37,203 nucleotides of DNA from a virus (IMGVR_UViG_3300009168_000077:1-37203); one strand, 5' to 3'; positions 1 through 37,203 are shown, counted from the first letter of the stretch. The notes: a model not told the origin generated them from the sequence alone. Translations and numbers: made by a program.

Positions 1-123
1 ATTGACTTTTCGACCAACCGAGTAGCATTTCACCGACCCCGGAGTACCATCCGCAACCCACCCCCTGAAATTCGTGGGGAGACCAAAAGGCTTGTTCGGA
101 AAAGCCCGCTCAATACAAAAAGG
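1..123. repeat. Left copy of the 123-bp terminal direct repeat
   Basis: These 123 bases are identical to the last 123 bases of the window. They lie inside the Eco57I-type methyltransferase gene, whose frame is continuous when the two ends are joined. The simplest reading is an assembly overlap of a circular or circularly permuted genome. A true short terminal repeat of the packaged DNA is possible but less likely, because the repeat falls within a coding sequence and carries no sign of a packaging site. Confidence 0.97.
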
Positions 124-1396: not shown

Positions 1397-1594
1397 TTAC
1401 TTGATAGCAGCCCACACCGCCAGTGTCGCGTGATTACTGGCGATGACTTCTCTTTCACCCTTTGACAACTTCTTCTCACTGATCCCCCATTCAGAGATGA
1501 AGTCCTTGTAAAACATCCGCCACGTGCGCTTCTGTGAGGATGAAAACTTGTCCCAGACACGTGGCGCACATGCTGCTGGTTTGCTACTGGACAT
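1397..1594 (-). CDS. Small Trp/Lys-rich protein, 65 aa, unknown
   Basis: ATG 1594 has AGGAG upstream (AAAGGAGATCAGG ATG) and lies inside the last codons of the sigma-like gene, an 11-base overlap typical of translational coupling. The product is basic and helical in character, with several Trp and aromatic residues (RVWDKFSSSQKRTWRMFYKDFISEWGI). No Cys pairs, membrane segment or enzymatic motif is visible. Its place directly after a transcription-factor-like gene allows a regulatory role, but that is only context. Confidence 0.6.
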   Translation of the reverse strand: MSSSKPAACAPRVWDKFSSSQKRTWRMFYKDFISEWGISEKKLSKGEREVIASNHATLAVWAAIK

Positions 1595-2369
1595 CCTGAT
1601 CTCCTTTGTTATACTTCTCACGTCCCCACCTCTTCACCATGGCCCTCGTCATACGCCTGCTTCTCTCAGCCCTAAACTCATCACTATACCGTAGTGTCAT
1701 AAACTGGCCTTGCAAAGCATGCTCAATCCATTTAAGCATGGCTGTCACTTCTTCGTTAGCGGTGCACGTATCATGCATCCTCTCTAATTTACCGTGCACA
1801 CGGTGCAGACAGTCATATACAGCACACTGCCTTACATGCCTGCCAAGTTTCACGGATAGTCGCTCAGCCGTGGCAGACTGACTGCAGTCCTTCGCAAACT
1901 CGTATATGATCTCATATGGCTGTACTCTCGTTTGTTTTGATGGCTGTATATACCGTTGCCACCATCCTTCAGGTGGTAGTGGTGGCATCGTGGCCCAATA
2001 CCTTAGCCTGGCTGCCGCGGTATATAGGCGCCTGCATACATTGGACTGGCTGCGTCCAACATTTTTTCCTATATCCCTTTGATATATATTTTGGCGGTAG
2101 TACTGCTCAAGGCACTCCTGCTCAAGCGGTGGCAGGTGCTTATATGCTTCCAAAAACTTTGGAGATCCCCACTCCGGACAGTCTTCGGTATGCTCGATCT
2201 CATCATGCTCATCCTCTAACCGTAGCGTGGTTGTTTCATTATTGGCGGACAGGATTGACTCGTCCAGGATACGGTGGCTGTTATTGATGCCATGAGCGGA
2301 TTTTGCCCACCTGTGGTAGGATGTGAGTGGTGATACCAGGTGCTTCATGTATTGTTTTGATTGAGCCAT
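1584..2369 (-). CDS. Sigma-70 region 4-like DNA-binding protein
   Basis: A 261-aa protein opening the long leftward (late) series. Residues about 72-125 (FLEAYKHLPPLEQECLEQYY, then QRDIGKNVGRSQSNVCRRLY) have the layout of a sigma-70 region 4 helix-turn-helix: a leading 'LPP.EQ..L' helix, a short turn and a Ser/Arg-rich recognition helix near 105-117. A second helical segment at about 152-197 could be another DNA-binding unit. No region 2 is visible in this protein; a separate gene at 3921 has a region-2-like pattern. A likely role is late-gene activation by binding host or phage-modified RNA polymerase. ATG 2369 lacks a clear Shine-Dalgarno, so the start is uncertain. Confidence 0.6.
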   Translation of the reverse strand: MAQSKQYMKHLVSPLTSYHRWAKSAHGINNSHRILDESILSANNETTTLRLEDEHDEIEHTEDCPEWGSPKFLEAYKHLPPLEQECLEQYYRQNIYQRDIGKNVGRSQSNVCRRLYTAAARLRYWATMPPLPPEGWWQRYIQPSKQTRVQPYEIIYEFAKDCSQSATAERLSVKLGRHVRQCAVYDCLHRVHGKLERMHDTCTANEEVTAMLKWIEHALQGQFMTLRYSDEFRAERSRRMTRAMVKRWGREKYNKGDQDVQ

Positions 2370-2488
2370 ATATGGCGAATCTGATGAAATTGACAGGCAA
2401 ATTTTTATTACTTATACCTATTGTTTTGTACCATGATCCTACCTAAGCCCTTGCAAACCTAAGAAACTGCAACGTTTTTACCGTGTAC

Positions 2489-2517
2489 TTGACATCTTCT
2501 ATACACAAAAGTATATT
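2489..2517 (+). promoter_or_regulatory. Sigma-70 type promoter for the Cys-cluster gene
   Basis: TTGACA (2489-2494), a 17-base spacer and TATATT (2512-2517), with a G just before the -10. Transcription would begin near 2524, leaving a short leader that carries the AAGGAGG of the gene at 2549. The same GTATATT -10 recurs at four other gene starts in this control region. Confidence 0.8.
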
Positions 2518-2548
2518 CATGACGTACCTACTAACCAAGGAGGAGTGT

Positions 2549-2809
2549 ATGATGACTGATGAGTTTCGTGCAAGACTGTTGAAGGAACTCGATAGGGCCA
2601 AAAACCAAGGTTATTCCGGAATAAAACTTCTTAGGAAGTATCTTAATGGCGTGACTCTTACTCGCGGCCAAGCCATACGCGCTAAATGCTCTGAATGTAT
2701 GTGCTACTATGAGGACGGCGGAATGGACTGCAGGAATAACCAATGTCCTCTGTATCCATACCGTCCATTTAAGGACAAGGCAGAAGAGGCCCCAAAACCA
2801 GTTTCTTAG
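2549..2809 (+). CDS. Small Cys-cluster (probable zinc-binding) phage protein, 86 aa
   Basis: The start at ATG 2549 (or the adjacent ATG 2552) is set by AAGGAGG five to eight bases upstream. A charged helical N-terminal half (DEFRARLLKELDRAK) is followed by a cysteine cluster, CSECMCYYEDGGMDC then CPLYPYRPF near the end. The 'C..C...C......CPLYPYR' layout is common in small phage proteins of unknown function and fits a single zinc site. It is monocistronic, with its own strong promoter, and divergent from the leftward series. It could be a small regulator or host-interaction protein; no function is proven. Confidence 0.8.
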   Translation: MMTDEFRARLLKELDRAKNQGYSGIKLLRKYLNGVTLTRGQAIRAKCSECMCYYEDGGMDCRNNQCPLYPYRPFKDKAEEAPKPVS

Positions 2810-2851
2810 TGCCCAGCTATGCTCAAATCGATGGTTTGACTGATTCAAACT

Positions 2852-2868
2852 GTTTGGGGCACCCAAAC
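2852..2868 (+). other. Perfect hairpin just after the Cys-cluster gene, with a competing fold
   Basis: GTTTGGG, loop GCA, CCCAAAC forms a perfect 7-bp stem. The 3' arm can instead pair with an upstream copy: ATGGTTTG (2831-2838) is complementary to CAAACCAT (2864-2871). The two folds exclude each other. No T-run follows, so this is not a standard Rho-independent terminator. It may stabilise the 3' end of the transcript or act as an attenuator. Confidence 0.45.
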
Positions 2869-2869
2869 C

Positions 2870-3046
2870 ATGTCCCAACACACAGACTATCCTGTGCAAG
2901 CGTCCTGTGCCTTTATTCGCCATGCCTTGAATTATCCTTCTTTGTGTAATGAACGTACAGGACCAGACTCCATGCCTAAAAAAATTGACACAACCAAGCG
3001 GTTGAATCCTAACTCCGGTTTCCTGGATGATAACCCCAGGACTTAA
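2870..3046 (+). CDS. Possible small ORF, 58 aa, unknown
   Basis: An open frame from ATG 2870 to TAA 3046 (MSQHTDYPVQ... ending FLDDNPRT), downstream of the Cys-cluster gene on the same strand and within reach of its promoter. The ATG overlaps the 3' arm of the alternative hairpin and has no good Shine-Dalgarno. An internal ATG at 2972 has AGGA nine bases upstream and would give a 24-aa peptide (MPKKIDTTKRLNPNSGFL...). The composition is hydrophilic and basic in the second half. It could be non-coding. I recognise no family. Confidence 0.3.
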   Translation: MSQHTDYPVQASCAFIRHALNYPSLCNERTGPDSMPKKIDTTKRLNPNSGFLDDNPRT

Positions 3047-3177
3047 ATTTCTGTAAAACCAAAAAATGTGCCTAAATTAGTATCGTTTTGGCCTATGGTT
3101 TTTTAGGAAGGCCTGCCTAATCGTAGTTGCCACACAAAGCATGTCCAGGCTATTGGACGTGTCTAATTAATACGTTT
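3047..3177. other. Non-coding interval between convergent transcripts
   Basis: No gene seen. It is AT-rich with several short imperfect inverted repeats: AAAACCA (3054-3060) with TGGTTTT (3097-3103), GGCCT with AGGCC around 3091-3114, and GTCCA with TGGAC around 3142-3157. Rightward transcripts from 2524 and leftward transcripts from 3356 meet here, so a bidirectional stop is plausible. No element has the full stem-plus-T-run form. Confidence 0.35.
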
Positions 3178-3351
3178 TTAACTACGTGGTTTTGAGGCTG
3201 GATAAGTACCATCTATGGCGGCTTTTTTCAAACAGGCGAGTTTCTTCCAGATAGGAGATCCGTCTTTGCACCTGTCCATGATCGTATCAATCAAGTCGAT
3301 GATGATATCCCGACACACCTGATCCGTACTGTTTTTGACTGGTTTGCTCAT
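3178..3351 (-). CDS. Small basic protein, 57 aa, unknown; possibly leaderless
   Basis: The frame is open from ATG 3360, but the promoter -10 at 3368-3363 places transcription start near 3356. The usable start is then ATG 3351 (MSKPVKNSTDQ...), nearly at the 5' end of the transcript and without a Shine-Dalgarno. The product is helical-looking (DIIIDLIDTIMDRCKDG, IWKKLACLKKAAID) with a basic C terminus. No family is recognised. It has its own promoter, separate from the sigma-like gene upstream. It might instead be a small RNA gene that happens to contain an open frame. Confidence 0.45.
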   Translation of the reverse strand: MSKPVKNSTDQVCRDIIIDLIDTIMDRCKDGSPIWKKLACLKKAAIDGTYPASKPRS

Positions 3352-3362
3352 GCTATGCACAC

Positions 3363-3391
3363 AATATACTACATGTTTACCTGTAATGCAA
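3363..3391 (-). promoter_or_regulatory. Promoter for the 57-aa gene
   Basis: Reading leftward: TTGCAT (3391-3386), a 17-base spacer and TATATT (3368-3363), preceded by G. The stretch GTAGTATATT is shared with the rightward promoter at 4228-4257. Predicted start near 3356, almost at the ATG. Confidence 0.65.
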
Positions 3392-3408
3392 AGGTTATTA
3401 GGAAATTG

Positions 3409-3921
3409 TTAAATTTCTTCTTCTCCGTATATGGCCAGTAGTGCATCCTTCCGGAATCTCTTAAGCACACGGTGATTGCTGGATCCAAATGGCGTACCTG
3501 ATTCCAGGCGCTCAAGGTACACCTGGTTAGGCTCATGTATAGCAGCTATGCGCTCACGCTCTAAATTGGACATTACTTCAGACTCTACTGACTGGTACAT
3601 GCTAAACACACCTGTGCAGCCATTAAGGATGCCTGGATACTTTACAAGTGCCTCACGGCGGACTTTATAGGTTTTGGTTGCATTTGATAAAACTGACTGA
3701 CAATACCGGAAGAAGACAACCTTCCAGCTAATACCTTTCGAAATGGCCTCTGTGACTGTTTTAAAGGTATTAGGTTTGCTCCACAATATTAAAACGTCTC
3801 CAACTAAGTCTGGCAGCTTTGAATCGTCCTGAGTGTTTTTAAAGTGGCTGTACAATACCTTACCAGCAAGCCTACAACAATCATGGTAGTTGTCAACTAT
3901 TAGTTGTGTTATTGTATTCAT
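3409..3921 (-). CDS. Sigma-70 region 2-like protein, 170 aa
   Basis: Starts at ATG 3921 behind AGGACAGGATC and a promoter 20 bases upstream. An open frame extends to 4113, but it would cover the promoter and an Ala-Lys simple repeat and has no Shine-Dalgarno. Residues about 10-50 (YHDCCRLAGKVLYSH, then LPDLVGDVLILWSK) resemble region 2.1-2.2 of ECF-type sigma factors, where 'DLVQE.F..LW' binds core polymerase. Residues 63-95 (ISWKVVFFRYCQSVLSNATK, basic after it) resemble region 2.3-2.4. No region 4 follows; a region-4-like protein is encoded separately at 2369. The assignment is inferred from pattern only. The C terminus (LERERIAAIHEPNQVYLERL) is helical and unassigned. Confidence 0.45.
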   Translation of the reverse strand: MNTITQLIVDNYHDCCRLAGKVLYSHFKNTQDDSKLPDLVGDVLILWSKPNTFKTVTEAISKGISWKVVFFRYCQSVLSNATKTYKVRREALVKYPGILNGCTGVFSMYQSVESEVMSNLERERIAAIHEPNQVYLERLESGTPFGSSNHRVLKRFRKDALLAIYGEEEI

Positions 3922-3941
3922 GATCCTGTCCTGTTGGTTTG

Positions 3942-3971
3942 AATATACTTCTCCGGCTAAGGAAATGTTAT
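3942..3971 (-). promoter_or_regulatory. Probable promoter for the region 2-like gene
   Basis: TATATT (3947-3942), preceded by G, with a weak -35 ATAACA (3971-3966) at 18 bases. Start near 3935 gives a short leader carrying AGGACAGG before ATG 3921. The -10 matches the other promoters here, while the -35 is poor, so activation may be needed. Confidence 0.5.
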
Positions 3972-4000
3972 AGGCTTTGAAGTCCTGGACAAATAAAGAT

Positions 4001-4048
4001 GCTTTTGCTTTGGCTTTTGCTTTGGCTTTTGCTTTGGCTTTTGCTTTT
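4001..4048. repeat. Hexanucleotide repeat GCTTTK, eight units
   Basis: Eight tandem hexamers alternate GCTTTT and GCTTTG (a 12-bp unit about 3.5 times, then one more GCTTTT). One strand is purine-rich (AAAAGC/CAAAGC). It lies between divergent promoters and could be coding only in an unlikely extension of the gene at 3921, as alternating Lys-Ala. It may be a protein-binding iteron set or slippage-prone spacer DNA. Confidence 0.75.
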
Positions 4049-4057
4049 CCTTCTTTT

Positions 4058-4130
4058 ACCCACCACACAGGTGGGTATTCAGGCACGAGCGAAGCGAGTG
4101 CCGTTAGTATCACACCAGTATATGGTGTGA
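4058..4130. other. Cluster of three hairpins between divergent promoters
   Basis: Three inverted repeats sit side by side. First, ACCCACC/GGTGGGT (4058-4064 with 4070-4076), 5-base loop. Second, GGCAC/GTGCC (4082-4086 with 4098-4102), enclosing GCGAAGC (4089-4095), a sequence known to form an exceptionally stable DNA mini-hairpin. Third, TCACACC/GGTGTGA (4110-4116 with 4124-4130), 7-base loop. None has a T-run. They lie next to the hexamer repeat and AT-rich DNA, which suits an origin of replication or a regulatory site. No initiator gene was recognised. Confidence 0.65.
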
Positions 4131-4297
4131 GTTTACGTTAGAAGCATAGCTATCAAAAGCATCTTAATAGTATATGTCGTTTTTTTATGCGTACTATTTA
4201 TGCCGACTAAAAAAAGTTATAAATTGTTTTACATTTTGGTTGCACACGTAGTATATTATGCCGGAAGCGGTGATTTATTGGTTGAGAGGAATCTTGA
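4131..4297. other. AT-rich leader and upstream region of the rightward block
   Basis: No gene seen. The interval is strongly AT-rich, with runs of T and A (4180-4215) ahead of the promoter at 4228-4257 and a short leader to the ATG at 4298. Confidence 0.5.
4228..4257 (+). promoter_or_regulatory. Promoter of the rightward early block
   Basis: TATATT (4252-4257), preceded by G, with TTTACA (4228-4233) at 18 bases (or TTACAT at 17). Predicted start near 4264, and the leader carries GAGAGG before ATG 4298. It shares GTAGTATATT with the leftward promoter at 3391-3363. Confidence 0.65.
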
Positions 4298-4831
4298 ATG
4301 AAGGATCTTTCTATGGCTCTTAAGAAGGCTTGTGGTCCAACAGCAGTACGGTTACGTGTATTCCATGATCTTGGTAGCTTCTACTATCCAACCAGTAAGT
4401 CCAGAGGCAAGAGAGAGTACGTATATCGTAAGGCTCTACTTGTCTGGTGGTATTATGACGCCTTCGGAGAAATCAAAGACGACTACGGTGTTATCACTCT
4501 TTCATTTGCACCAGGATCATCTTGCCGTAAGATACTTGAAGCCATAGGTTTTGATAACTTTCCAAAAGGTATTAAGCATGTTGGCAATGTTGTTAAGCTA
4601 TTTCAAATCATACAAGAAGATTTGGATAGTAAGCCTTGTTACATGACTCTTGAAGTTGAGCGTAAGAAAGGTTACATCGTAGTTAATAGTGCCAACCGTG
4701 TTGTTCCGTCAACGGTTGTACCTGACAAGTATTGCATGAGCTTGCGAGGACAAGCTGCCATGGAATTATATTCCGAGTACCGTAAGAAATGTATTGATGC
4801 AAACGACTCTGACTTATCAGAGACAGCATGA
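4298..4831 (+). CDS. Unknown early protein, 177 aa
   Basis: First gene of the rightward block, with GAGAGG about ten bases before ATG 4298. The product is basic and aromatic in its first third (LGSFYYPTSKSRGKREYVYRK; LLVWWYYDAFGE), followed by mixed alpha/beta sequence (KHVGNVVKLFQIIQEDL; YMTLEVERKKGYIVVNSANR). No catalytic or nucleotide-binding motif, zinc cluster or membrane segment is seen. First position in an early block is often taken by DNA-binding or host-takeover proteins, but I cannot assign one. The next gene follows 22 bases after the stop. Confidence 0.75.
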   Translation: MKDLSMALKKACGPTAVRLRVFHDLGSFYYPTSKSRGKREYVYRKALLVWWYYDAFGEIKDDYGVITLSFAPGSSCRKILEAIGFDNFPKGIKHVGNVVKLFQIIQEDLDSKPCYMTLEVERKKGYIVVNSANRVVPSTVVPDKYCMSLRGQAAMELYSEYRKKCIDANDSDLSETA

Positions 4832-4853
4832 TTACCTACAAAGGAGGACTGTT

Positions 4854-5582
4854 ATGTCCAGGCGTATGATTGACGTTGTGAGCGATGCGTTTCAGGCTAT
4901 TGGCGGGGCTCCTTCTAAGAAGATAGTAGATCGGAAGGAAAAAGAAATTGACAGTGGTACTGACACTTTTGAATATGGTGATATTATCATGAGGGCTGCC
5001 TCACCAGAAGATGAAGAGTCACTTAGTAAATTTTTAGATTCTATACAAGACGTTGATTTGTGTCAGTCTTGTCGGAAGACACCAAAAGCACACACCGTTG
5101 GTAACAGTCTTTTCTGCACCGAGTGTGATACACTAAGACATAATTTTGAAGACATAGTGCAGCACGCTCCTCATGCTGATGTTGAAAGTTTAGCTACTAT
5201 TAAGAATATTCTTTCCATACCGGAAAAGCACAAGAGGATGGAAAAACTCAGAGCTTCAAAGTATGAGACTGGTAAACGTAACATTGTTTTGAAGTTATAC
5301 GGAAAAAGATGTTTCATGTGTGGGTACACAAGAGATGAGATCCACATAGTACCTATTAAATTCATGACACGGTATAACATAGAAGTGCACCATATTATAT
5401 ATCCATATATTTACAATCTTGGGAAGGAAAGAATAGAAGACTATGCTATTCTTTGTTCAGAGTGTCACGATGATTGTACAGCTATAAGAAACAAAACAAT
5501 ATCTGACGGTGATATAGATAAAAGAGCACTACACCTTCAACAACTTTCAGAAGCAAGGGGCACAAAAAATGAAGAAGACTAA
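4854..5582 (+). CDS. HNH-like protein with two zinc modules, 242 aa
   Basis: ATG 4854 is chosen for its AAAGGAGG site; an open frame runs further upstream into the previous gene. A first Cys module lies at about 75-100 (CQSCRK ... FCTECD). The C-terminal half has CFMCG, EVHHIIYP and LCSECHDD, the arrangement of a zinc-stabilised HNH nuclease fold (paired Cys residues around His-His). The N-terminal 60 residues are charged and unassigned. Early location between regulators means it may be a nicking/cleaving enzyme for replication or host DNA, or a homing-type enzyme kept with phage DNA. It overlaps the next gene by 14 bases. Confidence 0.7.
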   Translation: MSRRMIDVVSDAFQAIGGAPSKKIVDRKEKEIDSGTDTFEYGDIIMRAASPEDEESLSKFLDSIQDVDLCQSCRKTPKAHTVGNSLFCTECDTLRHNFEDIVQHAPHADVESLATIKNILSIPEKHKRMEKLRASKYETGKRNIVLKLYGKRCFMCGYTRDEIHIVPIKFMTRYNIEVHHIIYPYIYNLGKERIEDYAILCSECHDDCTAIRNKTISDGDIDKRALHLQQLSEARGTKNEED

Positions 5583-5766
5583 ACGAATACCATACAAACG
5601 TCCGGAAGACAGGGTGTCAAAAAATCTCGTAGTACGTTTAAAGGAAAAAGAATTAGACGATTTGCGTGAGGCTGCCACACGCAGCAATCTCACGATGTCA
5701 GAATATATCCGTGAGCACATAGCATTATCAAAACTAACAAACAAACTGTCAGGACTGGAAACATAA
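5569..5766 (+). CDS. Ribbon-helix-helix DNA-binding protein, 65 aa
   Basis: Basic N terminus (MKKTKRIPYKRPEDR), then NLVVRLKEKELDDLREAATR and SNLTMSEYIREHI: a beta strand followed by two helices, the pattern of Arc/CopG-type or MobC-like ribbon-helix-helix proteins that bind DNA as dimers. The ATG lies inside the end of the HNH gene. Immediately after its stop are two tandem 21-bp repeats, a natural operator for such a protein, upstream of the promoter for the antirepressor genes. It is therefore a good candidate for the repressor or autoregulator of this block (inference from family and position). Confidence 0.75.
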   Translation: MKKTKRIPYKRPEDRVSKNLVVRLKEKELDDLREAATRSNLTMSEYIREHIALSKLTNKLSGLET

Positions 5767-5808
5767 CCACTTCCGTTTTTGACAAGTCCACTTTCGTTTT
5801 TGACACAA
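5767..5808. repeat. Two tandem 21-bp repeats, probable operator
   Basis: Copies at 5767-5787 and 5788-5808 share CCACTT(C/T)CGTTTTTGACA. The period of 21 bp is two helical turns, so a protein would bind both on the same face. They follow directly on the ribbon-helix-helix gene and lie about 20 bases before the next -35. Each contains TTGACA but has no matching -10. Confidence 0.75.
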
Positions 5809-5826
5809 AATAGTTTGCGATTTGGG

Positions 5827-5855
5827 TTGACTTTCTGGCTGCACTGAGGTATATT
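5827..5855 (+). promoter_or_regulatory. Promoter for the antirepressor segment
   Basis: TTGACT (5827-5832), a 17-base spacer and TATATT (5850-5855), preceded by G. Start is near 5862, followed by CAGGAGGAAGT and ATG 5901. It lies directly downstream of the tandem 21-bp repeats, so it is probably regulated. Confidence 0.75.
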
Positions 5856-5900
5856 GTGGTGTGGTTAGGATAATCACAATCACTAACATCAGGAGGAAGT

Positions 5901-6161
5901 ATGTCACACACGCTTGTAAATGTAAAAGACAAAGTACCTTTTAATGCTTTGTCAAAGTTTTATGGTAAAGACAAATCAAGTTTCAGGAAGTGGATGTTGA
6001 AGGAAGGATTCAAACTGCACAAAGTAAAAGGATATGATCGTCGGTTTGCTTTACAAACGGTGTTGGCTGTGAGCATGTCAGATCTACCACGAATAGGGGA
6101 GCTACGTGGTAGTACTATGACAGTGATTGATCAACATTGGTATCAGAATGATGGTAAATAG
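5901..6161 (+). CDS. Small putative DNA-binding protein, 86 aa
   Basis: Strong Shine-Dalgarno (AGGAGG) before ATG 5901. The middle section (FNALSKFYGKDKSSFRKWMLKEGFKLHK) looks like a short helix-turn-helix with a basic second helix, followed by KGYDRRFALQTVLAVSM. This layout resembles small excisionase- or Cro-like phage regulators, but the match is by pattern only. It is the first gene behind the regulated promoter at 5827 and directly precedes an antirepressor, consistent with a decision-type role. Confidence 0.55.
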   Translation: MSHTLVNVKDKVPFNALSKFYGKDKSSFRKWMLKEGFKLHKVKGYDRRFALQTVLAVSMSDLPRIGELRGSTMTVIDQHWYQNDGK

Positions 6162-6192
6162 TTTATACCTTTTTTAAAGCGAGGACAGGAAG

Positions 6193-6984
6193 ATGAGCAA
6201 CGAAATTATCACGAGGACATTTGGAGAGCATCAGGTACGCATAGCTGTTGATGGAGATCAAACGTGGTGGGTGGCAAAAGATGTGTGTGACGCGCTTGAT
6301 TTAGGTAACTCGCGTATGACAGTTGAGCGCATAGATTATGATGAAAAGGGTGTAAAAATTATTGACACCCTTGGTGGGCCTCAAGAGATGCAATGTGTTA
6401 CAGAGCCAGGGCTATATTCCTTGATTCTTACGAGCAACAAACCTGAAGCACACGCCTTCAAACGGTGGGTAACTCATGAGGTATTACCTACCATACGTAG
6501 GACTGGCACTTATACTGCACCAAAAGACTACGTTAGTGCTCTTCGTGCCTTGGCTGACACAACTGAGCGTTGCCAACAACTTGAGGAAGATGCCGAGCGT
6601 AATAATCCTCTTGCAAAGTTGTATAGAGATCTTGTTATGACTGACGGATTGTATACAATATCAGAGGCCGCAAAAGTACTTTACAATCACAGTCCTACTG
6701 GTCGTAATAGATTGAAAGCATTGTTGCGCGACAACAAATATATCATGGACTCAGACGAGCCTTATCAACGCTATGTTGAGCGAGATCTTTTCCGGATGAA
6801 GGAATTTATATTCAAGGATAAAAATGGTGTTGAAAGAAATGTTGCAAAAACTTTTCTTACTGCAAAAGGTATTGATCATATTCGCGCATTGGTGATTGAT
6901 GAGACAGCTCCTGCAGTCACCGTTGGTACAATCAAGCTGGATGATTCAATAGTAATTGATATTGACGAGCTTCTTAAGGACTAA
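6193..6984 (+). CDS. Phage antirepressor with BRO-N and KilAC-like domains, 263 aa
   Basis: ATG 6193 follows GAGGACAGGA. Residues about 8-105 form a BRO-N domain (TWWVAKDVCDALDLGN; TEPGLYSLILTSNKPEA; FKRWVTHEVLPTIRRTG). Residues about 150-240 match the KilAC type (GLYTISEAAKVLYNH; TGRNRLKALLRDNKYIM; AKTFLTAKGIDHIRAL). These proteins counteract phage repressors or bind DNA themselves, and are common in temperate phages. Here no classic repressor or integrase is found; the ribbon-helix-helix protein at 5569 is the nearest candidate partner. The length is usual for the family. Confidence 0.9.
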   Translation: MSNEIITRTFGEHQVRIAVDGDQTWWVAKDVCDALDLGNSRMTVERIDYDEKGVKIIDTLGGPQEMQCVTEPGLYSLILTSNKPEAHAFKRWVTHEVLPTIRRTGTYTAPKDYVSALRALADTTERCQQLEEDAERNNPLAKLYRDLVMTDGLYTISEAAKVLYNHSPTGRNRLKALLRDNKYIMDSDEPYQRYVERDLFRMKEFIFKDKNGVERNVAKTFLTAKGIDHIRALVIDETAPAVTVGTIKLDDSIVIDIDELLKD

Positions 6985-6987
6985 TCA

Positions 6988-7053
6988 ATGACAACATGTT
7001 TATCAATTATATTACTGTTAATCGCGGTGATTGTCATCCACACCGTGAAATGA
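6988..7053 (+). CDS. Tiny single-pass membrane peptide, 21 aa
   Basis: ATG 6988 has TAAGGA seven bases upstream, within the end of the antirepressor gene. The peptide MTTCLSIILLLIAVIVIHTVK is almost entirely one hydrophobic helix with a positive end. Its TGA lies just before the AAGGACAGG of the next gene, so it fits the operon without gaps. It may be a small toxin-like, superinfection or lysis-related membrane peptide; size and hydrophobicity are the only evidence. Confidence 0.55.
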   Translation: MTTCLSIILLLIAVIVIHTVK

Positions 7054-7065
7054 AAGGACAGGATC

Positions 7066-7326
7066 ATGATAAAGTTGACGCAGGAGATGATTGATTATCT
7101 GGGGCAAGATTTGGGTAACCGTCTGTATTATGATCCATCAACAGACAGTATAGTCAGGGGATCAACTTTTCACGGTGATTATGAAGCTATGCTGTTATCA
7201 CCGGACGATGTTGCACAGGCGGATGGCGATCTGGAAGTACTTGTAGGTGTTTTACTGTGTCGATATGATCGAATTTTTAATCCTGATGACGAGGAAGGAG
7301 AAGGTTGTACTTATGAAGAAGCCTGA
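7066..7326 (+). CDS. Small acidic protein, 86 aa, unknown
   Basis: ATG 7066 follows the shared start module AAAGGACAGGATC. The product is acidic, especially at the C terminus (FNPDDEEGEGCTYEEA), with mixed alpha/beta sequence (MIKLTQEMIDYLGQDL; LEVLVGVLLCRYDRI). No membrane segment or known motif. Acidic small phage proteins sometimes mimic DNA or bind host enzymes, but this is not shown here. Overlaps the next gene by 14 bases. Confidence 0.65.
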   Translation: MIKLTQEMIDYLGQDLGNRLYYDPSTDSIVRGSTFHGDYEAMLLSPDDVAQADGDLEVLVGVLLCRYDRIFNPDDEEGEGCTYEEA

Positions 7327-7561
7327 AAAACCTAACCTAAAACCGCAGCACATATCATGGATCAAAGGTGGAGAAAACCGAGCTATATTCTTTCGCGTTG
7401 AGCCTGGCATAGACAACATGGTAGGATTGGAGTGTGGATATCTCAATACTAACACAGGCAAATCAATAGCCTTGGTGAGCAGTATTGTGCAAGAGCTAAA
7501 TGAGGCAGAGATCAGAAGTATCTATGACGACATGTGGCGAGAGTACAGCAATGGCGACTGA
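7313..7561 (+). CDS. Unknown protein, 82 aa
   Basis: ATG 7313 lies within the end of the previous gene, with GGAGAAGG upstream; an open frame further 5' has no start site. The product starts MKKPEKPNLKPQHISWIKGG and continues with beta-like sequence (RAIFFRVEPGIDNMVGLECGYL) and a helical acidic end (ELNEAEIRSIYDDMWREYSN). No known family. It is coupled to the next gene by an 11-base overlap. Confidence 0.6.
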   Translation: MKKPEKPNLKPQHISWIKGGENRAIFFRVEPGIDNMVGLECGYLNTNTGKSIALVSSIVQELNEAEIRSIYDDMWREYSNGD

Positions 7562-7844
7562 TATGATCATCACTTCAAAAGAAGATGGCTCTCGCTGGAA
7601 GTTTGATCGTGATGATTATGACACCATCATCATACGCAGGCTTCCACCATTATCAGGTATGTGGTTTACATCGCACGAAGACATGAATGACAACTTTGAC
7701 GAATGCATAACTGTGTGCATCAGCAGATGCGACGGATCATACGAGTATATGAAAATGTTTCCTGATGATATCCTGCGTAAGATATGCGCACTTGTAAAAG
7801 CCTATAAAGAGTGGGGGCCATGGCGACTGACGTCTGCGTCTTAA
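7551..7844 (+). CDS. Unknown protein, 97 aa
   Basis: ATG 7551 overlaps the upstream stop (ATGGCGACTGA). The product (MATDMIITSKEDGSRWKFDR..., PDDILRKICALVKAYKEW) has charged, beta-then-helix character. No motif recognised. The first 11 bases of the coding sequence recur at the start of the next gene (7820), another case of repeated gene starts in this genome. Shine-Dalgarno is weak, so translation probably depends on coupling. Confidence 0.55.
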   Translation: MATDMIITSKEDGSRWKFDRDDYDTIIIRRLPPLSGMWFTSHEDMNDNFDECITVCISRCDGSYEYMKMFPDDILRKICALVKAYKEWGPWRLTSAS

Positions 7845-8038
7845 AAGCGGCACTGGATCAGCTTGATAAGATCAAGTCAAAGCGTGCTCTTAAGAAGGCA
7901 CGCAAGGCTATAGCCACATTGTACTTCTTCAAAACCTGTAAAGTTTTTACATGCACAGTACAGGAGCTTCAGGCACTGCTGGAGCTACTGGATGAGCGCA
8001 TTGCTGCAGAAACTAAACCGTGGTGGTATGTATTATAG
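7820..8038 (+). CDS. Small basic helical protein, 72 aa, unknown
   Basis: ATG 7820 lies inside the previous gene, with GTGGGGG upstream. The product (KAALDQLDKIKSKRALKKARKAIATLY..., VQELQALLELLDERIAAETK) is predicted all-helical, with Lys/Arg-rich and leucine-rich stretches that could form a coiled coil. Last gene of the rightward block. Its final 26 bases overlap the end of the leftward glycosyltransferase gene, with no terminator between them. Confidence 0.6.
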   Translation: MATDVCVLKAALDQLDKIKSKRALKKARKAIATLYFFKTCKVFTCTVQELQALLELLDERIAAETKPWWYVL

Positions 8039-13101: not shown

Positions 13102-14043
13102 TTATTTCAGACTCGGTATGAATGATACATCAGCTTTAAGGTATGCTCCTTGTGCCCCGGATCCCCACATTGTTGTCCCATTAGTGGTTGTGTATATTCT
13201 ACCATTATAATATGTACACCCACGTGTTGAATCCTCTCCTTCCCCATATACAGACTCACCTAATTTAGTATATGGGGATGTGGAAGGATCGTACTCCTTT
13301 ACCTGCTCATCTAAAAGTCCCATTGTTATTACTGTTGAATCATCCGAATTCCAGCATACACCACGTGTGTTTCCAGTATCTCCACTAAATGATTGTAGTG
13401 CTATGGCATGAGTGGTAGTATTAATTGCAAATTTCCACACGCTTGCATAACCATTCTTGGCATTATCAGTATACACAATTGTGGCACTTCCGTCAGAGCA
13501 TACATGCTCAGGCCAATAATCTGCATATGAATATGAATTTACAACCCAATCACCTAAACCTCTACGATACAAAACATATAAGTTTCTATCTGCACTTGCT
13601 GCAACAATATGCCCTGACAAACATCTTAAGTCATACACATCTTCGAGATCTGGCATAAGGTATTCATCAACGTCTGTAAAATTTGTACCATCAAATGATT
13701 CCATAAAAATACGTCCGCCATTGCTTGCATAAACATATGTGCCATCTGTGTCTACAGAAATATCTCCGCTTGTAAACGTTGATCCTTTTGATGTAAGTGT
13801 AGATCCGTCCCATGTATATGCCAGCAGTCCTGATGATCCAAACACATATAAATAATTTGCGTCTTGACAACTATTATATGCTGTGTATCCTGTGGCGCTT
13901 CCTTTTAATGCAAGAGAAGAATCATATATATATAAACCAGAGGCTCTGTGTGCAAAAATTTCACCAGTTGTGGCATTTGCCCTTGGTTTATATGCTAATC
14001 CACTTCCGTCAGAAGCAGTGTATATTTTAGATATTACATTCAT
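13102..14043 (-). CDS. Beta-propeller-like tail protein, 313 aa
   Basis: Overlaps the collagen-like gene upstream as ATGA. Recurrent blocks of about 40-45 residues, each with small-residue strands and a closing aromatic strand ([68 protein letters not shown]), suggest a six- or seven-bladed propeller. Such folds serve as binding modules, so it may be a receptor-binding part of the tail. No signal peptide. It is AT-richer than the neighbouring tail genes, hinting at separate acquisition. Confidence 0.6.
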
Positions 14044-15281
14044 ATAGTATATCCAAGATTAAGAGTAAGCCTTTTTATCATTGTTGTTGCAGAGTCTATG
14101 TTAACACGCAACACATCTCCTGCTGCAAGCGATGGCCCCGTCCATCCTGATGTAGTGCCTGTACTTTTTATTTCACCGCTTATGTAAGGACCAGTACCCC
14201 CAATAGTCATACTGTCCGCGGAAGTAGGAGGATAATTTGTATATGTATCTTTCCAAAGTCCTATAGTGTATGCGCCGGTAGAGCTTCCTAATATTGTCCA
14301 ATTACTTATTGTCATAGCGGTTGGTATATGTACATCACATGCAATACCGGCATAAAGGTTGTCAGGAGATCCAGATAGTACTATATTCAAACATCCTGTA
14401 AATCCTCCACCTTGAAGACCTGTTATACCTGCAGATCCTGTTGATCCTTGGCTACCTGTCTGTCCTTGACTACCAGTAGGCCCAGGCAGTCCTGTTTCTC
14501 CATATGCCAAACCTGTGACTCCTATGGCACCAGTCTGTCCTTGACTTCCTGTAGGCCCAGGTAGCCCAGTCTCTCCTAATACGCCTTCCAATGGTGTATC
14601 AGTGAGATAGGATAGGACGTATACTCCTGTAGTTGAATTAGGCGTTGTCAGGACAACATCAAACTGCCACAGTCCTGTTGATCCTGGTATGACTATACTA
14701 TGATCATACTGAGGCGCCTTCCAGTCATCAAAAGCGAGCGTACCAAATGCCTGGTTACGCATATTCACGCCATTCCAGTACCAAGTCTCTGCACCAGTGT
14801 ATCCTGTAGTATACTCAGCTACATTTACTCCATACCACTGCAAAAGGTGAGGTGTCAGGACTGATCCGTTATTACCTGTGAATGAGAAACATCCTGTGAC
14901 AGCATTATTAAAATATATTGACGTATTTGAATAGTACAGACTCATAGGACTCTCGGCTACAGAGGTGGCGCCTGTATATCCTTGTGATCCTGTATACCCT
15001 TGTGCCCCGGTATATCCTTGAGCACCTGTAGGCCCAGGAAGTCCTGTTTCTCCAAAAGGTAGTCCAGTCAGTCCCTGGCCACCAGTCTGTCCTTGACTTC
15101 CAGTCTGTCCTTGACTGCCTGTAGGCCCTTGTAGTCCAGTATCCCCGCCACTTGGTACCTGCCAGGTACCATCATCTCTTAGATATAATCCTGTAGGAGA
15201 TGATGGCAGATCAGGCACAAATACTTCCGCGGTATGTATGGTGCCTACTCTACTGGTTTTATTCTTATGAGCGTATGCCAT
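14040..15281 (-). CDS. Collagen-like tail fibre protein, 413 aa
   Basis: Contains two collagen-like Gly-X-Y blocks with Thr or Gln favoured (about residues 45-105 and 237-297: [20 protein letters not shown]). The blocks separate a short N-terminal attachment part, a beta-rich middle domain with YYGVN-type strands and a C-terminal beta-sandwich-like domain. Collagen-like rods in phage tails are trimeric spacers between globular domains. The middle and end domains probably give binding specificity. It shares the Gly-X-Thr style with the proteins at 17056 and 25556, suggesting a common origin of the rods. Confidence 0.85.
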
Positions 15282-29285: not shown

Positions 29286-30830
29286 TTATTTACTTATAGG
29301 CTTTTCATTACCTTCTTCGGCCTCTTCATCAGTAGTACCACCTTCAGGCTCTTGTGGTGCTGGCTCTTCAGCAGGAGCCTCAACAGGCACAACTTTTAAT
29401 GACTCTATCATTGCATCACGCTCATCCTCAGGCTCGTCAGCCATGATGATTTTAGCTACCTTCTGGTAGACTACCATCTTCAGCTGCTCAGGCACGCCCA
29501 TATCAACTATTTCCTTCAGAGCCGTTATTTCCTGCATCCTATCGCCCGGTTGATATGTGGTAGGATATTCGACGGCATATTCGTACTGCTCGCCTGTATA
29601 GAGCGACAGCATATCCATAGCCTGTACCTCGAACACCGTGGCTATACGTGCAGTCTCACGTAATGCGTGCTCTACGGCCCAGAACCTCCAGGCCAAGGCT
29701 ACACCTGATGCGGCTTGTGATGTATGTACAGCATGGACACCGCTTTGCTCGGCGGATCTAAACAAGTCCTCCATGTAATACTTGTTATTATCAACAAGAG
29801 CAGTGAGTTGCGCACTATCAGGACTGATATAGCCCGGGGTGATTGTAGAGCCCATAGGCACTATGATTGCGTTATGATTGGAGATAGTGACGTTGCCACC
29901 AAGATCGCTTTGGAAGTACAATATGCTAAAAGCCTGGCTTCTTTCCAGATCTCTAATTTCTGAGTCTTTGTTATAAATCAATGAGTTAAGGCGTGCCACA
30001 TCATACAATGGAGGATCTGGCAATACATCATGCAGGCTATCACGCTCGGTAGCATAGACGCTCATCACAGGCACTACGCCAAGGTTATGGTAGACTGGAG
30101 CACCTACTGGCTGCCATGTAGGCTCTACTCCACCAGCATTAGCGGAGCTTACACCTTTTTCTTTCTCCATGATGACACTATACTCGTCCGTCCATAGTCT
30201 GCACCTTTGGTATGTCTTAGTGCCATCCTTACGATCAGGCTCAGCAAACGCTATCTCCTGTAGGCGTCCAAAATCATCAGTCTTGCATATGACTACTTCC
30301 CATGCTGATTTCTTGATCATGTATGGATAGGTGCGTATCTCTACAGCCTCACCAACGGTAGCAGGCATGGCCTCTTGTGGAAAGTTGTCCATCACCACGA
30401 ATGTTACTCCATGGCGCCTTGCAGCATGTAGTACGGCCTTTGAGAAAGCCTGTATGGACGTACCGCCACCATCACAATCCTCAAGGAATGCACGTGCTAT
30501 AGGACTGCCCTCATCACCACCACCTTCATCTATGATGACTCTTGGTGCAGGCTCAGCAAATACAGGATCCACCAGGCTGTTGATGACAGGTTTTAAGAAG
30601 TTTTTATATACACTGAAACTTCTGCGCTTCATGTAAAACATTTCACGATCATGCGGTATCAGGTATGTACCGTCCCGGAATCCCCCTGTACCGTAATAGG
30701 AGTGATCCAAAAAGACATACTTATTGACGCTCAGTATATCCGTGTAGGTGTTGGTATCTGACACACGTGGATCACTGGATGTCTGAAAATGATCCTCTTG
30801 ATCTGATGATACTCTCTCTATGTTGGCCAT
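29286..30830 (-). CDS. Portal protein, 514 aa
   Basis: ATG 30830 has GAGGAGG upstream. The typical portal layout is visible: an N-terminal part with LSVNKYVFLDHSYYGTGGFRDG and YMKRRSFSVYKNFLKPVINSLVD (stem/clip region), a beta-rich middle (TFVVMDNFPQEAMPAT; ICKTDDFGRLQEIAFAEPDR), long C-terminal helices (SEIRDLERSQAFSILYF; RFWAVEHALRETARIATVFE) and an acidic Pro/Glu-rich tail (PAEEPAPQEPEGGTTDEEAE). It makes the dodecameric DNA gate of the head, next to the terminase. Length is normal for the group. Confidence 0.9.
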   Translation of the reverse strand: MANIERVSSDQEDHFQTSSDPRVSDTNTYTDILSVNKYVFLDHSYYGTGGFRDGTYLIPHDREMFYMKRRSFSVYKNFLKPVINSLVDPVFAEPAPRVIIDEGGGDEGSPIARAFLEDCDGGGTSIQAFSKAVLHAARRHGVTFVVMDNFPQEAMPATVGEAVEIRTYPYMIKKSAWEVVICKTDDFGRLQEIAFAEPDRKDGTKTYQRCRLWTDEYSVIMEKEKGVSSANAGGVEPTWQPVGAPVYHNLGVVPVMSVYATERDSLHDVLPDPPLYDVARLNSLIYNKDSEIRDLERSQAFSILYFQSDLGGNVTISNHNAIIVPMGSTITPGYISPDSAQLTALVDNNKYYMEDLFRSAEQSGVHAVHTSQAASGVALAWRFWAVEHALRETARIATVFEVQAMDMLSLYTGEQYEYAVEYPTTYQPGDRMQEITALKEIVDMGVPEQLKMVVYQKVAKIIMADEPEDERDAMIESLKVVPVEAPAEEPAPQEPEGGTTDEEAEEGNEKPISK

Positions 30831-30844
30831 TGTAGCCTCCTCGG

Positions 30845-31123
30845 CTATAAGCTGATCCTGTCGGTGTTATATATGAAATAGCATCTTAAAGGCGGTGAGC
30901 ACACAAACGCATCACTTGAGCACTCTCGGAAGTACTTTAAAATGCCTGAGCTATATGACGCTTTTACCTTTGCAGTCCATGGCAGTATGATATGCATGCC
31001 ATACTTAATAACTAAACCTATTGAATTATCATCCATATCACATACGACTATGTTGCCTATATCATGGCCTGAGTACATACACAATAATCCATTAGGTTGC
31101 TGCTGACTCATGTCTGTTTTCAT
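30845..31123 (-). CDS. Unknown protein coupled to terminase, 92 aa
   Basis: ATG 31123 overlaps the terminase stop as ATGA and has GAGG eight bases upstream; a longer frame to 31174 is less likely. The product has a polar Met/Gln N terminus (MKTDMSQQQPNG), then beta-like strands (NIVVCDMDDNSIGLVIKYGM) and Cys/aromatic-rich strands (AFVCSPPLRCYFIYNTD). No family recognised. Between terminase and portal, small proteins of this size may aid packaging or connect to host functions. Confidence 0.6.
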   Translation of the reverse strand: MKTDMSQQQPNGLLCMYSGHDIGNIVVCDMDDNSIGLVIKYGMHIILPWTAKVKASYSSGILKYFRECSSDAFVCSPPLRCYFIYNTDRISL

Positions 31124-32310
31124 ATCCTTATCCTCGCTGTCCTTGCTGTTTGAGAAGACATCAATGTATGCCATGCTCCAGATACCGCATCAATCATGTC
31201 GTCATGTGGATGTGTCATATCTGCACGGAAGGCTGCGCACTCCGCAAAAAACTCTTGTGTCCAATGTGAATTGACTACTTGTACTTCACCAAGTTTTGCT
31301 CGTGATATCCATGGCATTGCTCTTGCAAGCTTAGTACCTATTGGTCGTTGCGCAACTATTACATAATTCATTAGCCTCTTATCCCTTGCTAAATCATCTA
31401 CTACCGCTCTCTGTGCTGCTACATCCTCAAGCCCTATTTTCACACCTGTACCGTCTGCTAAAGCGTTACGTACTATAAGCTCCTTAAGATCCGGATATTT
31501 TGCTTTAACTCTTACAATGTCAGCTATTGTGAAATGTACTCCTGATATTAGACATAATGCCCCTACTGTCCAATCTGATTTTTTCTTGTCGGCAAATGCT
31601 AAATCATAATATCGTATACCTTCACTTACTGACAAAGGACTAATCATCCTGAATGTTGATGGATCAATAACTTCTCCAACAAAATCAACTACCTTACCAT
31701 ATATCTCCTGATCAGCAAAAACTCCTGAATATGTTTCTACAAGATGTTGTATATATGATTGTGGTAAAAAAGTATTTTCCATTGTCGTTTGTGTTATTAA
31801 CTTAACATTATCAGACATGGATAAATGATACACCCAATCTCTTCCATTAGGTGTTGTACATATTGACCAAGAAGAATCTTTTTCCTCTCGTATACGTCCT
31901 ATAAGAATATCAAAAAGCTTCCTATCATGAAATTCTCTGGCCTCATCTATAAACACGTCGCTTATATTCAAACCCCTTAGACTGTCAGGATTATCTCCAG
32001 ATCTCATAAGGATTTCTGTACCTCTTATTCTTATTGACATCTCTGTGCGATTAAGTATCCAGTCTTCACCTTGTTTTAAACAAAGCATATCTAATACTTT
32101 AAGCATTGTTGTAAGTATTACATCTCTAAGCACAGGATAAGAAAATGACACTATTAACTGTCGTCTTCCTCTTAGCGCATTTACAATTGACTTCACACAC
32201 AAAATTAGACTTTTTCCTCCTCCAACTCCAGAAAGAAATATTGTCCCCCAAGAAGTTGATTCTAAAAACTCGCGTTGTTTATTTGTTACTTTAAAATGAA
32301 CTGTAGACAC
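31120..32310 (-). CDS. terL: Terminase large subunit, 396 aa
   Basis: Packaging motor ATPase and headful or cos nuclease. With the start at GTG 32310, the Walker A motif is SGVGGGKS (27-34) and Walker B VFIDEARE has DE at 122-123. The nuclease domain shows YYDLAFADKKKSDWT, a C-terminal metal motif near THPHDDMIDA and basic segments between. An ATG-type start further upstream would overlap an inserted HNH gene by 89 bases. GTG 32310 overlaps it by only 20 but has only a distant AAGGA, so the start is uncertain. AT-rich composition compared with the portal gene. It is followed with ATGA overlap by the 92-aa gene. Confidence 0.93.
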   Translation of the reverse strand: MSTVHFKVTNKQREFLESTSWGTIFLSGVGGGKSLILCVKSIVNALRGRRQLIVSFSYPVLRDVILTTMLKVLDMLCLKQGEDWILNRTEMSIRIRGTEILMRSGDNPDSLRGLNISDVFIDEAREFHDRKLFDILIGRIREEKDSSWSICTTPNGRDWVYHLSMSDNVKLITQTTMENTFLPQSYIQHLVETYSGVFADQEIYGKVVDFVGEVIDPSTFRMISPLSVSEGIRYYDLAFADKKKSDWTVGALCLISGVHFTIADIVRVKAKYPDLKELIVRNALADGTGVKIGLEDVAAQRAVVDDLARDKRLMNYVIVAQRPIGTKLARAMPWISRAKLGEVQVVNSHWTQEFFAECAAFRADMTHPHDDMIDAVSGAWHTLMSSQTARTARIRI

Positions 32311-32818
32311 GTGAGTGATATTCCTTTTTTGCTTCTTTATATGCTTTACTTGCTTCTTCTTTAGTATTATATATACCAAGATAAATTATTTTATAACTAT
32401 TACATATCTGAGAAACATATCTATCACCATATTTCATAACACCTACAAATCCTGTTTTATTTCTAACATCTAATTTTCTATTCTCACAATTTTGTTTATT
32501 AGTACAAATTCTTAAATTTGATTTCCTATTATCAAGAGTGTCGTGATTTATATGATCTACTACGTATAAATCAGGAGCATTAGAAACAACTCTATGCATC
32601 TTTTTAGTAGTCCTACTTTTATTTGTATGGCTTCCGACCCTACAAGAAGCATACATAGTTTTTTTCTTTTTTTTATCAATACAAACTGACCACGCCCTAT
32701 CTATAATCTTGCCCAAATCTTCCTTATCTATCTTTGCAAAATATCCTTGAGTTAGTGGTATGTCGTAATAATCCCCACGATCTATTGGATCCCAAACTCT
32801 CTTATTATATTGTCCCAT
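32291..32818 (-). CDS. HNH homing endonuclease with AP2-like domain, 175 aa
   Basis: ATG 32818 has GGAGGTG upstream. A core of MHRVV...VVDHINHDTLDNRKSNLRICTNKQN forms the HNH active site, and the C-terminal GFVGVMKYGDRYVSQICNSY with LGIYNTKEEASKAYKEAKKEY is an AP2-type DNA-binding unit. The basic N-terminal part (DKKKKKTMYASCRVGS) contacts DNA. This combination is typical of free-standing phage homing endonucleases that cut a phage lacking the gene and so spread it. It stands directly before terminase and overlaps its start, suggesting insertion there. Strong AT-richness sets it apart from the genes upstream. Confidence 0.88.
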   Translation of the reverse strand: MGQYNKRVWDPIDRGDYYDIPLTQGYFAKIDKEDLGKIIDRAWSVCIDKKKKKTMYASCRVGSHTNKSRTTKKMHRVVSNAPDLYVVDHINHDTLDNRKSNLRICTNKQNCENRKLDVRNKTGFVGVMKYGDRYVSQICNSYKIIYLGIYNTKEEASKAYKEAKKEYHSRVYSSF

Positions 32819-33075: not shown

Positions 33076-33395
33076 GACTGGCATGGAAACTTTCCTTTTA
33101 TGTCTTGTATTGCGTCCTGCACCTGTTTTGAAGAATACACATCAATCAATGCCTGTCTTACCGCGGATCCTGCTTCTTCCTTCACAATTTTAAAAACATT
33201 TAAAGCCTCTCGCAACCATAGGTATTGCTCACCTACATTTGACGGTAGAGCAGTACCTGGATCAGCAAGTTTATGCACTGCCACTTCCATGATATCCAAC
33301 AGGCGCATGATACCTACTATAGCCATCAACTCCGTATCATCATTGCTGCACACCACCTGGATTACTGGCATTGTCTTTAGCTGTGTCTGATCCAC
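33072..33395 (-). CDS. Unknown helical protein in the terminase region, 107 aa
   Basis: Starts at GTG 33395 with GAGG six bases upstream, lying inside the last 56 bases of the small-terminase gene in another frame. The product has a variable N-terminal part (LKTMPVIQVVCSNDDTEL) and helices (MAIVGIMRLLDIMEVAVHKL; QYLWLREALNVFKIVKEEAG; VRQALIDVYSSKQVQDAIQD). No motif recognised. It is coupled to the small Cys protein. Possibly a packaging helper or an accessory of terminase, based only on location. Confidence 0.6.
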   Translation of the reverse strand: MDQTQLKTMPVIQVVCSNDDTELMAIVGIMRLLDIMEVAVHKLADPGTALPSNVGEQYLWLREALNVFKIVKEEAGSAVRQALIDVYSSKQVQDAIQDIKGKFPCQS

Positions 33396-33786
33396 TATTC
33401 ACCTCATCCAATAGTTTTTTTACATCACGTGGAGGTACTACTTCAAAATTGATATTGATTGGAGCATATACAGGTTGGCCGCCTGAAGTGAGATCGATGG
33501 CCATTTTCTCGTTTACTGTCCATCTACCATGGCGTCTGCTTGTCAAAGCAAATTTGATAGCCTGGAAATCTTTATCAGCCACGAGCTTGTACAGGTTGGA
33601 CTCGGCCTTGTCGAGGATGGCTTCTTCGCACTCTATGACGGCATCCAGGAATTTAGGATCCTTCTTCCGCCACATGAATATTGTCTGTCTTGATACGCCT
33701 ACGGCCTTTGCTGATTCGGTGATGTTAAGCGTATCACCATAAGACTTTATGAATGCAGCCTTTAAGGCCTTTGTATTAGTCCTCAT
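33340..33786 (-). CDS. terS: Terminase small subunit, 148 aa
   Basis: ATG 33786 is chosen for AAAAGG six bases upstream; a longer frame to 33834 is not supported. An N-terminal helix-turn-helix (KALKAAFIKSYGDTLNITESAKAVGVSRQTIFMWRKKDPKFLDAV) is typical of small terminases and Terminase_5-like proteins that recognise the packaging site. A helical middle (EECEEAILDKAESNLYKLVAD-like region) would form the oligomerisation core. The C-terminal tail is polar. It lies one step upstream of the terminase large subunit, apart from three inserted small genes including an HNH endonuclease. Confidence 0.8.
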   Translation of the reverse strand: MRTNTKALKAAFIKSYGDTLNITESAKAVGVSRQTIFMWRKKDPKFLDAVIECEEAILDKAESNLYKLVADKDFQAIKFALTSRRHGRWTVNEKMAIDLTSGGQPVYAPININFEVVPPRDVKKLLDEVNSGSDTAKDNASNPGGVQQ

Positions 33787-33856
33787 CTTTAACCTTTTCG
33801 TAATTTTTGTAATGCAGGCAGGATACGATTGCACCAGGCAATAGTATGGTATACAT
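33776..33856 (-). CDS. Mini-ORF ahead of the small terminase gene, 26 aa
   Basis: ATG 33856 has GGAG seven bases upstream, a proper start site. The peptide MYTILLPGAIVSCLHYKNYE... ends KVKDED and overlaps the start of the small terminase gene by 11 bases. A leader that couples translation to terminase is possible. Conservation in relatives would be needed to call it real. Confidence 0.4.
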   Translation of the reverse strand: MYTILLPGAIVSCLHYKNYEKVKDED

Positions 33857-36661: not shown

Positions 36662-37203
36662 TTTATACCTTTTATAGTCTTTTCAATATGCTCGATCTCT
36701 TTCTTGGTCAACCCGAAGTGGGCGTACAGTTCCTCGTCCGTCCATGCCTTCGAGTAGTCCTCAAGATCAGGCACCCATGAAAACTTACTCTTGTTCACAT
36801 CCTGAGATATAAGCCGTTGCATGAGGCAGAAGCGGGGGAACTTCAACCTCAGGTAAGCCTCGAAGTTGTCCGCCTCTTTCTTCGTGTTGAACGCAGCGAG
36901 TACCACGTAAGTTTCGGTGCAGCTATCCCCCTTAGAAATCTGAAAAGTTGTACCAAGAACCGGAGATGGCTGGCGATTTCCCTCCGCATCAATGATACCC
37001 TGACTCCGAGCCTTGGATGTGCAGACCTTGTACTTCCCCAAAATACCGTGATTGTCCCTCATGTCGTCTAAGGAGACACAATTGACTTTTCGACCAACCG
37101 AGTAGCATTTCACCGACCCCGGAGTACCATCCGCAACCCACCCCCTGAAATTCGTGGGGAGACCAAAAGGCTTGTTCGGAAAAGCCCGCTCAATACAAAA
37201 AGG
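36658..37203 (-). CDS. Eco57I-type methyltransferase, C-terminal part (continues from base 1)
   Basis: This is the end of the gene that starts at 819; bases 37081-37203 repeat bases 1-123. The 140 codons between 37080 and the stop give the probable target-recognition domain, with GTTFQISKGDSCTETYVVLA, FNTKKEADNFEAYLRLKFPR and a C-terminal helix-rich end (DEELYAHFGLTKKEIEHIEK). This layout (target-recognition domain followed by 'W.D..LY..F.LT..E...I') is characteristic of Eco57I-type enzymes. The DNA is GC-richer than the following genes until about 36690, near the end of the coding sequence. Confidence 0.88.
   Translation of the reverse strand, partial: PFCIERAFPNKPFGLPTNFRGWVADGTPGSVKCYSVGRKVNCVSLDDMRDNHGILGKYKVCTSKARSQGIIDAEGNRQPSPVLGTTFQISKGDSCTETYVVLAAFNTKKEADNFEAYLRLKFPRFCLMQRLISQDVNKSKFSWVPDLEDYSKAWTDEELYAHFGLTKKEIEHIEKTIKGIK
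37081..37203. repeat. Right copy of the 123-bp terminal direct repeat
   Basis: Identical to bases 1-123. Joining the ends leaves the methyltransferase frame unbroken, which argues that the genome is circular or permuted and that this copy is redundant. Confidence 0.97.

Follow-up and report, generated by a model that had tools for sequence, protein, structure and literature searches.

Two predicted sigma-70-family proteins with different domain content at the head of a phage late gene cluster

Sigma factors are the subunits that direct RNA polymerase to its start sites, and phage sigma factors that take over the host RNA polymerase are known. To our knowledge, few phage sigma factors have region 4 lost or displaced, and detailed studies of such factors have been confined to a small number of phages, including T4 and phiEco32. 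In T4, gp55 together with gp33 has been described as a split sigma factor (PMC2988020), so the view taken in an initial annotation of the locus described here, that a split sigma factor has no standard phage example, was mistaken. T4 gp33 is structurally unrelated to sigma region 4 (PMC7892883). In Bacillus subtilis, region 4 and region 2 are found in separate proteins, SigO and RsoA, which are encoded in one operon (yvrI-yvrHa) and were shown to work together (PMC8103513). The phiEco32 protein gp36 has no homology to region 4 and is sufficient by itself for transcription from middle and late promoters, for which it uses a single -10-like element (PMC8948821). Finally, Xpf of PBSX is a phage-linked positive control factor of the sigma family, for which both sigma-2 and sigma-4 are listed (PMC10141391). 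Judged from its sequence, the phage described here has two different sigma-70-family relatives, P0001 and P0002, at the head of its late gene cluster.

The window, which is the whole stretch of viral DNA analyzed, has a length of 37,203 bases. Its first and last 123 bases are identical, and judging from this direct repeat at both ends, the window most likely represents an entire phage genome, about 37.1 kb long and either circular or terminally redundant (Table 1). The minus strand carries the late genes, which extend from approximately position 3921 down to 1, over the junction, and onward to approximately 8013, whereas the genes at 4298-8000 that include an HNH nuclease and an anti-repressor (PHROG matches) are on the plus strand. 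The two open reading frames (ORFs) from which the initial annotation had built a two-piece sigma factor were both recovered on the minus strand where it had placed them. As it had also described, P0001 opens the late series, and both sigma-70-family genes stand at the head of the late cluster. Several other features were observed in this cluster. An HNH-like endonuclease ORF (window 32291-32818) overlaps the start of the terminase large subunit gene, as is likewise seen in the related sequence L003. Methyltransferase-like genes are present between P0001 and the terminase genes (34551-35099, Methyltransf_23, E=1.8e-10; 35821-36444 and 33956-34546, by eye or weak match). Collagen-like Gly-X-X repeats are found in several late-region proteins (17056-19977, 14040-15281, and 25556-26065) and also in the relative G001.

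Table 1 Positions of the features of the window that are discussed in the text.
Feature	Position	Strand	Description
P0001, 261 aa	1584..2369	-	sigma-70 region 4 in mid-protein, no region 2, uncharacterized C-terminal part
Sigma-70 region 4 of P0001, residues 77-123	2001..2141	-	PF04545, E=1.9e-7
Cys-rich 86-aa ORF between P0001 and P0002	2549..2809	+	homologue of L070:2578-2871
60-aa ORF downstream of P0002	3178..3360	-	own TTTGCA-18-TATATT promoter-like site at 3363-3392
P0002, 170 aa	3409..3921	-	putative remote ECF-like sigma homologue with shortened region 4; ATG after AGGACAGG
Region-4-like remnant of P0002, residues 107-159	3445..3603	-	HTH about 8 residues short
Region-2-like part of P0002, residues 7-92	3646..3903	-	includes DLVGDVLI
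Host-type promoter-like site of P0002	3942..3971	-	ATAACA-18-TATATT (9/12), consensus match only
Portal protein	29286..30830	-	PHROG match; query for relatives
Terminase large subunit	31120..32379	-	PHROG match; query for relatives
Terminase small subunit	33340..33834	-	PHROG match; late-cluster gene, past the genome junction when followed from P0001
Direct repeat of window 1-123, 123 bp	37081..37203	.	sequence identity

P0001 had been described as a protein with a region-4-like helix-turn-helix (HTH) and no region 2, in agreement with what was found. Its match to Pfam PF04545 scores 30.9 bits, above the curated cut-off of 24.1, and matches are also observed to NCBIfam TIGR02937 (E=2.2e-7, residues 68-123) and to PHROG 351, "RNA polymerase sigma factor" (E=2e-5). 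Region 2 was not detected in profile searches of the whole protein against Pfam and NCBIfam. Since the pieces that flank region 4, the N-terminal 77 and the C-terminal 133 residues, matched no family and gave no region 2 when searched alone, P0001 has no detectable region 2. Weak matches are seen to PHROG 323 (D5-like, E=0.035) and PHROG 79 (Q-like). T5 D5 was also considered as a relative, and the similarity is marginal (Smith-Waterman score 40, Z 2.05, p=0.04). Among the sigma-like proteins of related phages, no significant direct similarity to P0001 was found, except for L070:1032-1700, which shares its layout and, weakly, its sequence (p=0.009). A close homology of P0001 to the L069 protein or to L070:1790-2503 was tested and is unsupported.

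For P0002, no significant match was obtained in Pfam, PHROGs, NCBIfam, PDB sequences, phage records, IMG/VR, or GTDB contigs, and a second scan of IMG/VR, in which P0002 aligned with its relative served as the query, returned nothing. The PF04542 (region 2) profile has no match in the genome, and against bacterial ECF profiles P0002 scores at background level (rank 109 of 572 with hhalign, a ranking that omits about 20 of the strongest control queries). As a consequence of the background scores and the missing PF04542 match, the sigma identity of P0002 rests on one intermediate sequence. This sequence comes from related phages that were reached via the terminase and portal proteins, the P0002 queries having found nothing, and in which sigma-like genes stand before the terminase genes.

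The intermediate, L075:1555-2058 (168 aa), matches TIGR02937 with 53.7 bits (cut-off 42.9) over both regions and, as predicted from its sequence, is a real one-piece sigma factor. P0002 aligns with this protein by BLASTP over residues 11-159 (E=2e-6). The Smith-Waterman score of the pair is 72, with a runner-up at 49 among approximately 1390 ORFs, and this score was reached by none of 5000 shuffles (top shuffle 71). When the two halves of P0002 were aligned separately, both the N-terminal (p=0.0013 relative to shuffles) and the C-terminal half (p=0.001) showed similarity, and the C-terminal alignment includes the region-4 recognition helix (FGSSNHRVLKRFRKD in P0002 and FGVTKQRIHQRVRDD in L075). 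The earlier statement that P0002 has no region 4 is therefore too strong; relative to L075:1555-2058, the protein lacks approximately eight residues before this helix. The region-2 pattern that had been noted in P0002 is borne out, in that the eight residues DLVGDVLI fit a pattern held by 9 of 12 known ECF sigma factors and present in only 7 of about 1100 unrelated ORFs and in 0.3% of shuffled P0002 sequences, the pattern having been composed after the sequence was seen. Structural support is limited to a low-confidence, alignment-guided AlphaFold model of P0002 (pLDDT 52), which has ECF sigma factors at the top of its PDB list (best E=0.37) and is not independent evidence, as the input alignment consisted of sigma factors. 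In the single-sequence model (pLDDT 40), which is too poor to be of use, no sigma factor was found and the alignment-guided fold was not reproduced. Since its homology to a one-piece sigma factor extends from end to end, P0002 is not simply a region-2 half and is best seen as a whole small sigma factor with a damaged or shortened region 4.

The start of P0002 at ATG 3921 is preceded by the ribosome-binding-like sequence AGGACAGG. The frame is open further upstream to GTG 4113, and this extended start was rejected in view of the position of AGGACAGG before ATG 3921. The extension would run through a 12-bp tandem repeat, GCTTTTGCTTTG, which is located just upstream of P0002 (window 4000-4052), is open in frame, and reads as a Lys-Ala repeat.

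Domain content varies among the sigma-like genes of the relatives, which include one-piece, region-2-type, and region-4-only forms. L005:1068-1565 (TIGR02937, E=1e-6) is homologous to L075:1555-2058 and has no direct similarity to P0002. L069:1574-2209 and L070:1790-2503 match region 4 (E=5.7e-10 and 4.4e-8, respectively), and L081:1324-1809 (PHROG 351, 6e-7) and L077:150-626 (PHROG 351) match region 2. The window, G001, L070, and L075 each have a pair of sigma-like genes close to the head of the late cluster, and L069 has one such gene in its available sequence. In G001, the pair consists of L005:1068-1565 and L063:1015-1722 (TIGR02937, E=5e-4), located across the 60-bp terminal repeat; in L070, of L070:1790-2503 and the divergent, region-4-only L070:1032-1700 (TIGR02937, E=1.3e-5); and in L075, of L075:1555-2058 and L075:3317-3835. 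The pattern of loss is not strictly complementary, as one-piece sigma factors occupy this place in some relatives, at times accompanied by another sigma-like gene.

Further features of the related phages were observed. In distantly related phages (TerL approximately 28%), L020:2450-2947 and about 20 further loci contain, a short distance past the terminase large subunit gene, a sigma gene that is clearly ECF-like (TIGR02937, 45.5 bits). At L005:573-1061, nine type I-E-like CRISPR repeats (GTGTTCCCCACACACGCGGGGATGAACCG) with irregular spacing (84 to 38 nt) adjoin a transposase-like (TnpB-like) ORF and precede the sigma-like gene of that phage. The terminase large subunit at L005:2249-4420 is split by an insert resembling an intein, in which an HNH ORF (3646-4275) is nested.

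The arrangement of the two genes was also compared with that of promoter-like sites. All of these sites are consensus matches, and the region does not contain more of them than expected by chance (22 versus 16.8). As the initial annotation had indicated, a GTATATT box stands immediately before P0002 (3942-3948), preceded at a distance of 18 nt by ATAACA, and the 190 bp preceding P0001 yielded no host-type promoter. Across the genome, GTATATT is not enriched (10 copies versus 7.3 expected), and 5 of the 10 copies precede ORFs at 2.5-5.9 kb. The upstream sequences of 14 minus-strand genes (P0002, ORF 3360, and those late genes that are preceded by a gap) were searched by k-mers for a common late-promoter motif, and the result did not exceed that of shuffles: the k-mer AAGTATA occurs with one mismatch before 10 of the 14, and shuffles reach up to 10. 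Between P0001 and P0002, the opposite-strand gene at 2549-2809 has its own strong promoter-like site (TTGACA-17-TATATT, 2489-2517), so the two sigma-like genes are predicted to lie outside a single operon. The product of this intervening gene is similar to that of L070:2578-2871 (Smith-Waterman score 125, Z 20), which follows the sigma-like gene in its phage. The adjoining position of this homologue supports a neighborhood shared with L070.

Based on these results, the reading we favor, with roughly an even chance of being correct, is that both proteins regulate late transcription, P0002 as a divergent single-chain, ECF-like sigma factor and P0001 as a separate region-4 regulator. P0002 would be made early from its host-type promoter, and its region 2 would bind the core RNA polymerase of the host and melt a -10-like element. 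Recognition of a -35 element would depend scarcely or not at all on the shortened region 4, a situation comparable to that in phiEco32 gp36. P0001 would most likely bind DNA or the flap as a second late-gene regulator and would not be the obligate other half of P0002. We infer this division of labor between P0002 and P0001, along with core binding, promoter recognition, and the timing of expression. From the two-piece proposal of the initial annotation, this reading retains two family members with different domain content and drops the idea that P0002 is simply the region-2 half, given its full-length homology to a one-piece sigma factor.

A true two-subunit sigma factor of the SigO/RsoA or gp55/gp33 kind, with region 2 from P0002, region 4 from P0001, and both needed for late transcription, is rather unlikely, even though the defects of the two proteins are roughly complementary: in P0001, region 4 is intact and region 2 missing, and the HTH of P0002 is incomplete. 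The late strand of G001 fits this arrangement as well, with small region-2-type and region-4-like genes about 2 kb apart across the circular junction. However, L075 combines a one-piece sigma factor that has both regions with a second sigma-like gene, the region-4-only gene of L070 is divergent and has a partner that also contains region 4, and an opposite-strand gene stands between P0001 and P0002. The broader possibility, that an uncultured phage family has a genuine two-protein late sigma factor made of a region-2-type protein and a protein with a true, homologous region 4 and an extra C-terminal domain, both acting jointly on the host RNA polymerase, and that its members, some with a one-piece form and others with two proteins, display stages in the splitting of a one-piece sigma factor, is likewise considered unlikely.

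The end-to-end alignment of P0002 with a bona fide phage sigma factor, far above ORFs and shuffles, makes it improbable that P0001 is the sole late activator (Xpf, Q-like, or D5-like), working with host sigma-70, and that P0002 is a non-sigma protein, an anti-sigma factor, or a decayed sigma factor. Such an assignment would be consistent with the missing family match of P0002, with its background scores against bacterial ECF profiles, and with the weak matches of P0001 to PHROG 323 and PHROG 79. A sigma cascade, in which P0002 would serve as a middle sigma factor for P0001 and a few other genes and P0001 would then activate the remaining late genes, is suggested by the gene order, by a promoter-like site found before P0002 and not before P0001, and by the several relatives with two sigma-like genes. 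This cascade is very improbable: lacking region 2, P0001 would be unable to act alone as a full sigma factor, and a motif shared upstream of P0001 and the late genes was not found.

How sigma domains separate, and whether the separated parts still cooperate, would become testable in a phage family in which one-piece, region-2-type, and region-4-only relatives of sigma factors occupy the same genomic position. Relative to the described systems, the favored reading, a single-chain P0002 beside a separate regulator P0001, brings P0002 closest in its working to phiEco32 gp36, a likeness drawn from descriptions of gp36; unlike for gp36, no late motif was found for this phage. The P0002 homologue L075:1555-2058 differs in that it keeps a complete region 4. 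PBSX Xpf provides a model for P0001 as a stand-alone late activator, from which P0001 differs in being without region 2. The likeness to T4 gp55 and gp33 would lie in phage late transcription by a small region-2 sigma factor and a separate partner at the sigma-4 site, but gp33 is unrelated to region 4 (PMC7892883), whereas the region 4 of P0001 is genuine. Finally, SigO and RsoA share one operon, whereas the P0001 and P0002 genes are separate and P0002 keeps what is predicted to be a remnant of region 4.
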